DNA of 41,534 bases, taken from assembly GCA_018971605.1 (NCBI GenBank), contig JAGXAL010000004.1:1-41534 (forward strand), given 5' to 3'. Numbering within the stretch: position 1 is the first letter of the stretch; each line of letters opens with the position of its first letter. The translations under genes and the position numbers were made by a program. Positions 34,177 through 39,839 of this stretch are shown here, one piece after another. The stretch comes from Natronospirales bacterium. GTDB lineage: Bacteria > Pseudomonadota > Gammaproteobacteria > Natronospirales > REEB76. The notes beneath the pieces are model-generated. The model ran no database searches and was not told the origin of the DNA. It saw only the letters and a program-made list of their open reading frames with translations.

Positions 34177-34824
34177 TCAAAAATTGCTGCTCGGCACTTC
34201 CTCGAGAATCTCGATTTCGCCGTTGCAGGTAATTTCGTCATCGTGCGACTCCATGTCCACGCCGTTCCAATAATCCAGCGCGCGTTTATGCCATTCCACC
34301 AGGGAAATGGTGTCGCCCATGACCAGCTGCTGCGGGGCGCGGTGCATTTCACCGGTGGCGCGCACGCGGAACACCTTCTTGTGATCGCCGCGCATGTTTT
34401 CCAGCCAGAAGCGCACGGCACGCGCATCGTCGGGAATCAGCCAGATGCAGCTGCTGCGTGAGGGCAGATCCGGATACATCTGGCGGCGCACGTCCTCCAG
34501 CACCAGTTCGCGCACCATGCGCGTGGACAGAAACAGGCTGTCCAGCGTTTCCGCCAGCGTCATGACCGGATTGAAGTGATAAAAATTGAGGTGCGGGTCT
34601 TTCTTCCCCTGCTTGCGATACACGTGCAGGGCGCGAAAGGCCACCAGGTCGACGGTGAACACCTCGTTGGTTTCGGGATTGGTAATGCCGCGCCGTGCCA
34701 CCTCGAATGCCCGCCAGGAATTATTAGGCTCTTCGCCGAAATTGAACACCGCGCCTTCCACCCACTTGGGCGAATTGTGTTTGTGAATGTGGTAATACTT
34801 TTCGCTCTCGATGTGCATGTGCAC
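34177..34824 (-). CDS. Uncharacterised protein, possibly DUF2441-like
   Basis: 215 aa; KYYHIHKHNSPKWVEGAVFNFGEEPNNSWRAFE...; clear ORF, family assignment tentative. Confidence 0.65.
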   Translation of the reverse strand: MHMHIESEKYYHIHKHNSPKWVEGAVFNFGEEPNNSWRAFEVARRGITNPETNEVFTVDLVAFRALHVYRKQGKKDPHLNFYHFNPVMTLAETLDSLFLSTRMVRELVLEDVRRQMYPDLPSRSSCIWLIPDDARAVRFWLENMRGDHKKVFRVRATGEMHRAPQQLVMGDTISLVEWHKRALDYWNGVDMESHDDEITCNGEIEILEEVPSSNF

Positions 34825-34918
34825 CCCGGCCTTTGTTGCTCACAAATCCGCCACGCTTGCGGCGCAGCCGAACGCGGAATTTATCACAGCTCCGGCGGCA
34901 ACGCCGCGGCTGCCCGCC

Positions 34919-36022
34919 TCACACCCGGTCGCGCGGCAGCGGCGTGACTCTCACCGGCATTCGCTGCCGTCCCCAGTGACCCGGTTTGCCGGCGAACTTG
35001 CCGGGTATCGCGGTGCCGCAATTCAGGCAATGGCCGTCATCATCCAGATTCCATGCGCCCAGCTCGTACCAGTCACGCTCGATCACCAAGCCGCCGCAGC
35101 CGGGACACCAGGTGCTGCTGCCGCTGCGATCGTGCACGTTGCCGGTGTAGCAATAGTGCAGCCCGTTGTTGAGCGCGATGCTGCGCGCATGCATGAGCGT
35201 GGCTGCCGGCGTCGGCGGCCGATCGCGCAGCTTGTAGTCGGGATGATAGGCGCTGAAATGCAGCGGCACATCCGCGCCGAGGTTTTCCATGATCCACTGA
35301 GTTTCGCTTTCGATGTCGGCGTCGGAATCATTCAGCCCGGGAATCAGCAAGGTGGTGATTTCGAACCATACGCGGGTTTCCTGCTTGAGATACTTGAGCG
35401 TGTCCAGCACCGGCGCGAGATGGCCGCCGCAGATTTTCCAGTAGAACTCTTCGGTGAAGCCCTTGAGGTCCACGTTGGCGGCGTCCATGTGCCGGTAGAA
35501 TTCCAGCCGCGGCTCGAGGCACATATAGCCCGCGGTCACCGCAATAGCGTTGACGCCGAGTTCGTGACCAGCAGCGGCAACGTCCATGGCGTATTCCATG
35601 AATATCACCGGATCGTTGTAGGTGAACGCCAGGCTCGCGCAGCCTAGGGATTTCGCCGCTGCTGCTAAAGCCGCTGGCGTCGCGGCGTCGGCGAGCGTAT
35701 CCATCTCCCGCGACTTCGACATGTCCCAGTTCTGGCAAAACTTGCAGGCTAGGTTGCAACCGGCGGTACCAAAGGACAGCACCGCGGTACCTGGCAGGAA
35801 ATGGTTGAGCGGCTTCTTTTCCACCGGGTCCACACAAAACCCGCTGGAACGCCCGTAGCTGAACAGCTTGATTTGATCATCCTCGCGGCCGCGCACGAAA
35901 CACAGACCGCGCTGGCCTTCCTGCAACTTGCAGGCACGCGGACACACGTCGCACTGCACCCGGCCGTCCTCAAGGCGGTGCCAATAACGCGTGAGCACGA
36001 TGGTTTGTGAAGCGGCAGGCAT
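34919..36022 (-). CDS. amrS: AmmeMemoRadiSam system radical SAM enzyme
   Basis: CDVCPRACKLQEGQRGLCFVRG, FGTAGCNLACKFCQNWDMSKSRE (CxxxCxxC), YNDPVIFMEYAMDVAAA, C-terminal Cys pairs CPGCGG / CLNCG. Confidence 0.93.
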   Translation of the reverse strand: MPAASQTIVLTRYWHRLEDGRVQCDVCPRACKLQEGQRGLCFVRGREDDQIKLFSYGRSSGFCVDPVEKKPLNHFLPGTAVLSFGTAGCNLACKFCQNWDMSKSREMDTLADAATPAALAAAAKSLGCASLAFTYNDPVIFMEYAMDVAAAGHELGVNAIAVTAGYMCLEPRLEFYRHMDAANVDLKGFTEEFYWKICGGHLAPVLDTLKYLKQETRVWFEITTLLIPGLNDSDADIESETQWIMENLGADVPLHFSAYHPDYKLRDRPPTPAATLMHARSIALNNGLHYCYTGNVHDRSGSSTWCPGCGGLVIERDWYELGAWNLDDDGHCLNCGTAIPGKFAGKPGHWGRQRMPVRVTPLPRDRV

Positions 36023-36051
36023 AGCGGCGTTTCCGTACTACCATTAAGTAT

Positions 36052-36840
36052 ATGACCACCCGTGCTGTGCGTGTGCCTGCCGTTGCCGGCTTGTTCTATC
36101 CCGGTGAAGCCCCTGCCCTGCGCGCCCAGCTGGTACAACTGCTCGCGGACAACCCGGCTGCGGGCGCAGCGCCCAAGGCGCTGATTGCGCCGCATGCCGG
36201 CTATGTTTATTCAGGCCCGATTGCAGCGCGCGCCTACAACCGCGCGGCGCTGCACGCCGACACTGTGCAGCGCGTGGTCTTGCTCGGGCCTGCGCATCGC
36301 GTGGCGCTGCGGGGGCTGGCGCTGCCTGGCGTGGACGCCTTCGGCACGCCCTTGGGCAATGTACCGCTGGATCGGGACGCCCTGGCGAGCATCGAGGATC
36401 TGCCGCAGGTGACGCGCTCCGACGCGGCGCACGCGTTGGAGCACAGCCTGGAAGTGCATCTGCCGTTTTTGCAAATCTTGCTGGCCCGCTTCACTCTCGT
36501 ACCCTTGGTTGTCGGCTCGGCGACAACGGACGAGGTTGCCGAGGTCGTGAGCAAGCTCTGGGGCGGCGACGAAACGCTCGTCGTCATCAGCAGCGATCTC
36601 AGTCACTACCATGCGTACGATAGCGCCCGCGATCTGGACGAAGATACTGCGCAACGCATCGAGGCCTGCGCAGTCCCGATTCCGGACGCGCAGGCTTGCG
36701 GAGCCTACCCCATCAACGGACTGCTGAGCGTGGCGCGCCAGCGTCAGTTGCGCGTGGAGCGTCTGGATCTGCGCAACTCCGGCGACACCGCCGGGGACAA
36801 GCGCCGCGTGGTGGGTTACGGTGCCTGGGCCTTTGTATGA
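36052..36840 (+). CDS. amrB: AmmeMemoRadiSam system protein B (MEMO1 family)
   Basis: PKALIAPHAGYVYSGPIAARAYN, VVLLGPAHRVALRGLALP, VVISSDLSHYHAYDSARDLDE, CGAYPINGLLSVARQ. Confidence 0.94.
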   Translation: MTTRAVRVPAVAGLFYPGEAPALRAQLVQLLADNPAAGAAPKALIAPHAGYVYSGPIAARAYNRAALHADTVQRVVLLGPAHRVALRGLALPGVDAFGTPLGNVPLDRDALASIEDLPQVTRSDAAHALEHSLEVHLPFLQILLARFTLVPLVVGSATTDEVAEVVSKLWGGDETLVVISSDLSHYHAYDSARDLDEDTAQRIEACAVPIPDAQACGAYPINGLLSVARQRQLRVERLDLRNSGDTAGDKRRVVGYGAWAFV

Positions 36841-37406
36841 GTCTTAGCGCAGTGACGCGCGCTACCCTGCTGGCTGCAGCGCGGTACAGCATCCACCAGG
36901 CACTGGACAAGGGGCAGGCATGCTTCAGCCATGCCAATCCCGATCCAGCTTTGCGCGCGACATGCGCCACGTTCGTAACCTTAAAACGCCACGCGGTGCT
37001 GCGCGGCTGCATCGGCAACCTCGAAGCCAACCAGTCCTTGCTGGATGACGTCATGCACAATGCCCGGCTGGCCGCCTTTCAAGACCCGCGTTTCCCGCCG
37101 CTGGTGGCGGCAGAGTTACAGGATTTGTATGTGGAAATCTCGGTGCTCTCCAGCAGCGAAGCGCTCGCCGCGCGCAGCCGCGAGGAACTGCTGCGCAGCC
37201 TGCGGCCGGGAGAGGACGGCGTGATTGTCCAGGAAGGCACGCGTCGCGCCACCTTCCTGCCTGCCGTCTGGACCCGCTTGCCCGACAAAGCGCAGTTCTA
37301 CGACGAGCTGCTGCGCAAAGCCGGTCTGAGGTCAACACATTGGTCGGCGGACTTGCAATTCTTCCGCTACCATACCGAAACTTTCGGCGACCGGGAGCCA
37401 ACATGA
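36837..37406 (+). CDS. amrA: AmmeMemoRadiSam system protein A (AMMECR1 family)
   Basis: CFVTLKRHAVLRGCIGNLE-type motif (ATFVTLKRHAVLRGCIGNLEANQSLLDDVMHNARLAAFQDPRFPPL), VEISVLSS. Start ATG 36837 overlaps the amrB stop by 4 nt. Confidence 0.94.
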   Translation: MSLSAVTRATLLAAARYSIHQALDKGQACFSHANPDPALRATCATFVTLKRHAVLRGCIGNLEANQSLLDDVMHNARLAAFQDPRFPPLVAAELQDLYVEISVLSSSEALAARSREELLRSLRPGEDGVIVQEGTRRATFLPAVWTRLPDKAQFYDELLRKAGLRSTHWSADLQFFRYHTETFGDREPT

Positions 37407-37672
37407 AATCGCTGGTCTGCGCCATCCTGATGACTGCCCTGACGCTGGTCCTCGGCGCCTGCGACGCCGGTCATTCCGTCGGTAACACCGCCGGCAGCCA
37501 GGCGCCGCCACCGGTGAGTCACACGGTATTTGCGCCCTATGTGAACGACGTCAACAAGGCCAAACAGTTACAAGACACCGTGAATGCGCAGAAACAAGCA
37601 CTGGATCGCGCCATTCAAGCGCAGACTGGAGCCACCCGCACACCCGCCCCTTCCGCGCAGTCTCCGCGCTGA
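37403..37672 (+). CDS. Small lipoprotein, translationally coupled to the AMMECR1-family gene
   Basis: 89 aa; MKSLVCAILMTALTLVLGACDAGHS lipobox (LGAC). ATG overlaps the upstream stop (ATGA, 37403-37406). Confidence 0.75.
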   Translation: MKSLVCAILMTALTLVLGACDAGHSVGNTAGSQAPPPVSHTVFAPYVNDVNKAKQLQDTVNAQKQALDRAIQAQTGATRTPAPSAQSPR

Positions 37673-37673
37673 T

Positions 37674-38192
37674 TCAGCTGCCAGCGTCGCGCAGCCGCAG
37701 GCTGAAATGCAGGTCGCAGGCATCCGCCTTGCCGGCGGACGCCTGCAGTTGACGCGCAAACCCGTAACGTTCGTAAAGTTGCACCGCTTCTTTCAGCACC
37801 GGCGCAGTGAACAGTTCGATGGTTTCAAAGCCATGGGTCCGTGCCCAGGCCAGCACCCGTTCGAGGAGCACGCGGCCAAGTCCGCGGTGCCGCACCTTGT
37901 ACGCCAGGTACAGGCGCCGCAGTTCGCACAGCGTTTGGCTGCGGCCGTAGGCCCCGCTACAGCCCACGAGCACGCCGCTGCTGTCTTCCAGCACCTCGAA
38001 CATGCCCTGGCGGCTGCCGTACCAGCCGGCGACATCAGCCAGGTCGTCGTCCAGTGCCGCGCCGGGTGCCGGCAAGCCGTAACTTTGCAAAATGCCGCCG
38101 ACCAAACTGCGCAAAGCATCCGCGTCCGCGCGGATTCCCGGCCGCAGCGTCAGGCGCAGCTCGGCCAGCAAATTCTCGTGGTTGGAGGCCAA
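37674..38192 (-). CDS. GNAT family N-acetyltransferase
   Basis: LRRLYLAYKVRHRGLGRVLLERVLAWARTHGFETIELFTAPVLKEAVQLYERYGFAR. Confidence 0.9.
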   Translation of the reverse strand: MASNHENLLAELRLTLRPGIRADADALRSLVGGILQSYGLPAPGAALDDDLADVAGWYGSRQGMFEVLEDSSGVLVGCSGAYGRSQTLCELRRLYLAYKVRHRGLGRVLLERVLAWARTHGFETIELFTAPVLKEAVQLYERYGFARQLQASAGKADACDLHFSLRLRDAGS

Positions 38193-38203
38193 GGACGCGA
38201 GGC

Positions 38204-38884
38204 CTATTTGATCCTGCGCACGAACACGGTTTCACCGTGCCCCGGCAGGGTCAGGAGGTAACCGAAGCCGAGCTTCTTGATAACCACCTGCGGATGATCG
38301 AGCCTCACATTGGTGAAATATCCGGTGCCCGCTTGTTGCCACTGCTGCCCGTTTTCCAGCGTGAACACCGTATTGCCGCTCCAACCGGTAAATACGCCGG
38401 CCAGGCGTGTTTCGATGCGTTCTGGCGTCGCCGAATTTTCCTTGCGGGGCATGGTATCCGCACCGAAACTGGCGGCCACGGGCGCCTTGGCTTGCGACAC
38501 CGGCGGCGACATGGCCGCGGAAAGCGGTGCTGCCGACACTCTGTGCGTGCCAAGATACTGATCCAGCCAGTCATTGAATGCCGCAAGCTGCGCGGGTGAC
38601 AGTTTGTCGAGACCGGTCCGGTCGAACTCGCCGACGGTAATGACATTGCGCACGTCCACCGGCGTAGACGAGGCTGCCGGCTGCGAGGCCAGGTAATGAC
38701 CCAGCCAGAGATTCAAGGCCTCGAGCTGCGGCGGCGAGAGCGTATCCAGGCCGCTCGCATGAAACTGCGAGACCGTAATCAGATTGCGCACGTCCACGCT
38801 CTGCGATGCAGCGGGTGCCGCCAGCACCGTTGCGCAACACCAGAAGCCAAGCAACGCTGCGATGCCCGCTGTCAATCTGTGCAT
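38204..38884 (-). CDS. Secreted hypothetical protein with two tandem repeats
   Basis: MHRLTAGIAALLGFWCCATVLAAPA signal peptide. Repeats VDVRNLITVSQFHASGLDTLSPPQLEALNLWLGHYL and VDVRNVITVGEFDRTGLDKLSPAQLAAFNDWLDQYL. Start trimmed from 38941. Confidence 0.75.
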   Translation of the reverse strand: MHRLTAGIAALLGFWCCATVLAAPAASQSVDVRNLITVSQFHASGLDTLSPPQLEALNLWLGHYLASQPAASSTPVDVRNVITVGEFDRTGLDKLSPAQLAAFNDWLDQYLGTHRVSAAPLSAAMSPPVSQAKAPVAASFGADTMPRKENSATPERIETRLAGVFTGWSGNTVFTLENGQQWQQAGTGYFTNVRLDHPQVVIKKLGFGYLLTLPGHGETVFVRRIK

Positions 38885-38891
38885 GCCTGCC

Positions 38892-39839
38892 TCACCACGG
38901 TAAATGATCCAGATCCACGTTGCCGCCACTGAGGATAACACCGACCCGGCGACCCTTCACCTCGACCAGCCTTTCGCGCAGCGCCGCCAGCACCACGGCC
39001 GCCGACGGCTCAATGATGATTTTCAAGCGCTCCCAGACAAAGCGCATGGCGGCCACGATGGCGGGCTCCGCGACGCGCACGATTTCGTCCACCTGCGTGC
39101 GCAGCACCTCGAAAGTCAGCGGCCCGATGGTGGCGCGCAAGCCGTCGGCCACGGTATCGGGATGCGCCACCGGCTCGATGTGCCCCGCGCGCAATGAACG
39201 CCAGGCATCGTCGGCGCCGAGCGGCTCGACGCCGAGGATTTTGCATCCGGGACGCAGCGCGCGCGTAGCGACCGCCGTGCCGGACAGCAGCCCGCCGCCA
39301 CCCACCGGTGCCAGTACCCACTCCAGTCCCGGAACTTCCTCGTGCAATTCCAGCGCTGCGGTTCCCTGCCCGGCCATGACCAGCGGGTCGTTGTACGGAT
39401 GCACGATGGTCGCACCGCTTTGTGCCACGTAATTTTGCAGCGCAGTTTCTCGACCGCGCATGCTCGACTCGCAATAAATGATCTTGGCACCGTATTCCGC
39501 AACCGCACGTTTTTTGAAGGCGCTGGAGTTCTCCGGCATCACGACGCACGCCGGTATCCCGCGGCGGCGTGCCGCCAGCGCCAAGGCCGCGCCGTGGTTG
39601 CCGGACGAATGCGTGGCTACGCCGCGGGCCGCCGCCGCTGTTGATAGCGACAACACGGCATTGGCAGCGCCGCGGATCTTGAAGGCGCCCATTTCCTGAA
39701 AGTTCTCGCATTTGCAGAAAACTTCAGCGCCCAGCTCCGCTTCCAGCGGCGTACACCGCATGACCGGCGTGTGGCTGATCTGCGCAGCGATGCGCGCCGC
39801 GGCCGCACAGATATCGGCGAATGTCAGAATGTCCGGCAT
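38892..39839 (-). CDS. PLP-dependent threonine/serine dehydratase or serine racemase-like enzyme
   Basis: 315 aa; HTPVMRCTPLEAELGAEVFCKCENFQEMGAFKIRGAANAV (PLP Lys), SSGNHGAALALAARRRGIPACVVMPE, GGGGLLSGTA. Confidence 0.92.
   Translation of the reverse strand: MPDILTFADICAAAARIAAQISHTPVMRCTPLEAELGAEVFCKCENFQEMGAFKIRGAANAVLSLSTAAAARGVATHSSGNHGAALALAARRRGIPACVVMPENSSAFKKRAVAEYGAKIIYCESSMRGRETALQNYVAQSGATIVHPYNDPLVMAGQGTAALELHEEVPGLEWVLAPVGGGGLLSGTAVATRALRPGCKILGVEPLGADDAWRSLRAGHIEPVAHPDTVADGLRATIGPLTFEVLRTQVDEIVRVAEPAIVAAMRFVWERLKIIIEPSAAVVLAALRERLVEVKGRRVGVILSGGNVDLDHLPW

Follow-up and report, generated by a model that had tools for sequence, protein, structure and literature searches.

The window, by which we mean the whole 41,534-nucleotide stretch of DNA analysed here, from a gammaproteobacterial MAG of 1.94 Mb, very probably carries the standard gammaproteobacterial AmmeMemoRadiSam gene set together with a syntenic bystander, a lipoprotein gene that is now the distal gene of the transcript. 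The lipoprotein is real, but it is unlikely to be a fourth component of AmmeMemoRadiSam.

The AmmeMemoRadiSam locus

The products of the three core genes were each matched to their family far above the cut-off: the radical SAM enzyme (rSAM) to TIGR04337 with 639.8 bits (E 8.7e-193, cut-off 220), the MEMO protein to TIGR04336 with 255.9 bits (cut-off 26) and the AMMECR1 protein to TIGR04335 with 189 bits (cut-off 99). The genes are contiguous over 34919-37406, and the set is complete, as the first-pass annotation had claimed. The divergent layout, the 29-bp gap and the ATGA overlaps that it described at both plus-strand junctions are likewise present in the sequence. The start codons of rSAM (36022, minus strand) and MEMO (36052, plus strand) enclose the gap at 36023-36051, while ATGA is shared between the MEMO stop and the AMMECR1 start at 36837-36840 and between the AMMECR1 stop and the lipoprotein start at 37403-37406. 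The rSAM gene itself falls beyond the interval 36023-37672 which that annotation had assigned to the locus.

Table 1. Features of the AmmeMemoRadiSam locus in the window, and of the small membrane-protein gene in related genomes
Feature	Position	Strand	Basis
AmmeMemoRadiSam radical SAM enzyme, 367 aa	34919..36022	-	TIGR04337, Pfam Radical_SAM, CxxxCxxC motif CNLACKFC
Divergent intergenic region, 29 bp	36023..36051		Read from sequence
18-bp conserved element CGTACTANNNTTAAGTAT, ending at the MEMO ATG	36034..36051	+	Invariance across genus genomes
MEMO-family AmmeMemoRadiSam protein B, 262 aa	36052..36840	+	TIGR04336, PF01875, invariant His48/His82
AMMECR1-family AmmeMemoRadiSam protein A, 189 aa	36837..37406	+	TIGR04335, PF01871, LRGCIGN motif
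Predicted lipoprotein, 89 aa, Cys20 lipidation site; syntenic neighbour, non-core	37403..37672	+	Lipobox, synteny, dN/dS, AlphaFold2
Small membrane protein, 117-124 aa, several predicted transmembrane segments	L043:9032-9385, L051:8123-8476, L053:8764-9138	-	Before the lipoprotein gene in three genomes

The order of a minus-strand rSAM diverging from plus-strand MEMO and AMMECR1 is the usual one, being found in 32 of the 46 gammaproteobacterial loci examined, and in the remaining 14 the 1.5-kb flank may have truncated the layout. In contrast, the divergent gap measures 29-35 bp in this genus and roughly 75-474 bp in other Gammaproteobacteria (homology-based starts), and the locus further differs in having a genus-specific invariant element in the gap and a lipoprotein gene directly downstream.

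The rSAM, MEMO and AMMECR1 proteins are all predicted to be cytoplasmic. The PflA-like rSAM would generate a 5'-deoxyadenosyl radical, which may act together with a non-haem-iron-type MEMO, of the LigB/extradiol-dioxygenase fold, and AMMECR1 on a cytoplasmic substrate. Known AMMECR1 domain structures, those of ST0229, PH0010 and MM0484 (1WSC, 1VAJ and 1ZQ7), belong to the same family over most of its length, but these are archaeal proteins, and nothing about mechanism carries over from them to the protein of the window. The rSAM of AmmeMemoRadiSam has been related to rSAMs of peptide-processing systems (PMC7159879), which we take as a lead only; the literature found on AmmeMemoRadiSam consists of passing mentions, none of which establishes a biochemical activity for the family.

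Candidate metal ligands of the MEMO protein

MEMO resembles the LigB-type extradiol dioxygenases in fold and has two conserved candidate metal-binding histidines. Human MEMO1 binds iron, and dioxygenase activity was not found for it (eLife 2024); its iron ligands, three in number, include His49, His81 and Cys244 (PMC11081632). The two histidines of the human protein (PDB 7KQ8, 3BCZ) align with His48 and His82 of the window MEMO, both of which are invariant in 53/53 sequences. The region of human Cys244 lies outside the alignable part; in the bacterial family, the candidates for a third ligand are Cys216, which is invariant, and the conserved NSGDT motif.

A conserved element in the divergent gap

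The element CGTACTANNNTTAAGTAT was found without mismatch in the rSAM-MEMO gap of all nine genus genomes holding the region, once per genome, with no further copy at one mismatch or fewer in the same nine genomes. It is absent from the sister-genus genome G011 and was not found in gammaproteobacterial AmmeMemoRadiSam intergenic regions outside the genus, the best matches being at the level of shuffled sequence. Of 70 four-fold degenerate sites in MEMO, just 5 were invariant over eight of the nine element-bearing genomes, and since synonymous sites are thus nearly saturated, the 15 fixed invariant positions of the element are far beyond what drift would leave. The element contains a TAnnnT hexamer, whose variable bases are the NNN of the element and which stops seven bases short of the MEMO ATG. 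A consensus scan of 34700-38300 returned no known sigma-70 promoter. A likeness to the TrpR operator (GTACT...AGTAC) was rejected, since the second half-site does not match and the spacing between the half-sites is off by one base.

The element is probably a shared promoter or operator serving both divergent arms, which it would drive or regulate from within the 29-bp gap. It is likely to act either as a core promoter, from which a near-leaderless MEMO transcript would start, or as an operator overlapping both promoters. That its conservation reflects only an overlap with translation-initiation sequence, with no role in transcription, would fit its position, as in the window and several relatives it runs exactly up to the start codon of MEMO; however, the element offers MEMO no Shine-Dalgarno-like stretch, it lies between divergent genes, and its fixed positions stand where synonymous sites have been nearly saturated, which together make this reading unlikely.

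The lipoprotein gene and its product

The 89-aa lipoprotein of the first-pass annotation was recognised in the translation, with a VLGAC lipobox (Cys20) and a Pro/Ala-rich C-terminus. The LGAC lipobox and a Cys20 invariant in 11 aligned homologues, from the genus and G011, identify the protein as a bacterial lipoprotein, while searches of Pfam and NCBIfam gave no match and no named family. The gene is kept in 10 of 11 genus genomes and is missing from one MAG that is 52% complete, and pairwise dN/dS values of 0.09-0.20 indicate purifying selection; with such conservation across the genus and such selection, it is not a chance open reading frame.

AlphaFold2 modelled a signal helix (residues 3-19) and a single confident helix (residues 44-77), joined by a linker of low confidence. 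The best-conserved part across the 11 sequences is the helix, residues 43-74, with F43, P45, N51, A53, K54, A62, Q65 and Q74 invariant. The product would be an independent small envelope lipoprotein, consisting of a signal peptide, a lipidated Cys20, a disordered linker and a periplasmic helix of ~34 residues, and a predicted periplasmic location makes direct participation in the system less likely. The residue that follows Cys20 (codon at 37463) is Asp in the window, where most relatives in the genus have Gly. In E. coli, a change of the residue after the lipidated Cys can alter sorting between the inner and the outer membrane.

The lipoprotein gene is genuine and conserved, and in the subclade of the window it is probably co-transcribed. 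The ATGA overlap suggests co-transcription and probable translational coupling, and does not suggest membership of the system.

The lipoprotein in the genus and in a sister genus

The first-pass annotation had proposed the lipoprotein as a possible fourth component and had suggested searching for it beside AMMECR1 in relatives. Within the genus the association held, the lipoprotein gene lying within one gene of AMMECR1 in 10/10 genomes with the locus, whereas outside the genus it was absent from that position in the loci examined. The sister genus was represented by a single genome, G011, which is ~100% complete and in which no rSAM, MEMO or AMMECR1 was found by the same searches that succeed in the genus genomes. 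G011 nevertheless keeps the lipoprotein (E 1.6e-27 by a profile in which G011 itself was included, and E 5.8e-6 by the window protein alone) in the same slot, flanked by PPDK-2OG-ALDH-DUF2441 and, at the opposite end, by X245-ThrDH-Orn. The lipoprotein is thus not confined to genomes with AmmeMemoRadiSam, and the fourth-component claim was not borne out.

A 124-aa membrane-protein gene directly precedes the lipoprotein gene in G011, and in G001 and G008 the same small gene, whose product has no Pfam match, intervenes between AMMECR1 and the lipoprotein gene. It is located at another site of the genome in G006, G007, G009 and G010, and no copy was found in G000 or G002-G005. The direct ATGA junction between AMMECR1 and the lipoprotein occurs only in a single clade (support 100) made up of G000, G002, G003 and G004, while other genus members have a gap of 27-32 nt or an extra gene between the two. 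As the membrane-protein gene intervenes in two genus members, the direct junction appears to be derived in the subclade of the window. On the basis of one outgroup together with G001 and G008, and with the basal genus split at a support of 66, the simplest history is that the pair of inner-membrane-protein and lipoprotein genes was ancestral at the site. The three AmmeMemoRadiSam genes would have come to lie directly upstream of this pair, through gain in the genus or loss in the sister genus, and the membrane-protein gene would later have been lost or have moved away in further lineages, among them the subclade of the window, where the lipoprotein was left adjoining AMMECR1.

From this arrangement it could be envisaged that the functional partner of the lipoprotein is the small membrane protein and not AmmeMemoRadiSam, the two genes lying ~11-25 nt apart in G011, G001 and G008. 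The lipoprotein persists, however, in the four genomes that have the membrane-protein gene elsewhere and in the five with no copy found, and such a pairing is distinctly unlikely.

The surroundings of the pair show further variation. The unannotated X245 protein (38204-38941, minus strand) contains in the window an internal tandem duplication of a ~40-residue unit, VDVRN-ITV-F--(S/T)GLD-LSP-QL-A-N-WL--YL, which is present as a single unit in G001, G006, G008 and G011. The interval between the lipoprotein and X245 (37673-38203 in the window; also L043, L048, L049, L050 and L053) varies in gene content within syntenic outer flanks, and, with genes for a GNAT protein, a DUF2147 protein, a fatty acid desaturase and a further membrane protein, forms a small hotspot of gene turnover. 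The DUF2441-family protein (34177-34824, minus strand) is among the most conserved neighbours, with 73-92% identity and retention in G011; a search of eight genomes, of which seven belong to other families of the order, did not recover it.

Distribution of the lipoprotein across the Gammaproteobacteria

Among 46 other AMMECR1 loci of the Gammaproteobacteria, two of them from one genome and 41 offering 600 nt or more of downstream sequence, AMMECR1 was never followed by a credible small lipoprotein, using a detector that was positive for 10/10 genus loci. Lipoproteins with a similar helix were detected in 34 of 367 other genomes of the class at E 1e-3 or better, some of them probably spurious, and none of the 28 loci examined for these candidate relatives had rSAM, MEMO or AMMECR1 within 1.5 kb. 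Adjacency to AMMECR1 thus does not recur beyond the one genus (0/46 class loci, 0/28 relatives), which, with the intervening gene in G001 and G008, also counts against a fourth component; that reading was rejected on synteny and distribution, and the hint at envelope involvement of AmmeMemoRadiSam loses its support on the same evidence. Where a candidate relative shares a contig with AMMECR1, the distance between the two ranges from 69 kb to 2.5 Mb. The distant relatives have no obvious conserved neighbour, plsB being adjacent at 1/28 loci.

The scattered gammaproteobacterial lipoproteins with an 'LDKAKGVQ' helix, such as Steroidobacter L088, are alike in having a lipobox, a linker and one C-terminal helix, and share with the window lipoprotein a KAK/KAR-x-VQ-type motif in the helix. 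They differ in their unrelated genomic contexts (Steroidobacter L088 lies beside plsB), and with 34-40% identity at best and mostly weak matches, the distant kinship is tentative.

In favour of a link, AMMECR1 is present more often in the genomes with candidate lipoprotein relatives (26 of 34) than in the others (153 of 333; Fisher p about 0.001), in a test that ignores phylogeny and in which many relatives are weak matches. G382, which has the strongest relative outside the genus in the class sample, is without AMMECR1. This co-occurrence is treated as a lineage effect until shown otherwise.

Weak as it is, the class-wide co-occurrence could be joined to the proximity to AMMECR1 throughout the genus, the ATGA coupling in four genomes and the purifying selection on the gene to argue that the lipoprotein is a genus-specific accessory component, recruited on co-transcription, for instance to serve the product as an envelope partner or a substrate carrier. 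We consider this very unlikely, as G011 keeps the gene at the same place without the system, another gene intervenes in G001 and G008, adjacency to AMMECR1 was never seen outside the genus among the loci examined, and the mature protein is predicted to be periplasmic while the three enzymes are predicted to be cytoplasmic. Very unlikely indeed is its recruitment, as a lineage-specific envelope partner, into an AmmeMemoRadiSam transcription unit under the single-copy bidirectional element.

Significance

The conservation of AmmeMemoRadiSam extends over both bacteria and archaea, two of its parts have relatives in humans, and a new component, if true, would be a real lead. The lipoprotein neighbour is conserved but separable from the system, and its persistence in a genome without the system removes a tempting false lead. 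The invariant 18-bp element at the divergent promoter of the genus is a smaller lead, which may help to show when the system is expressed.
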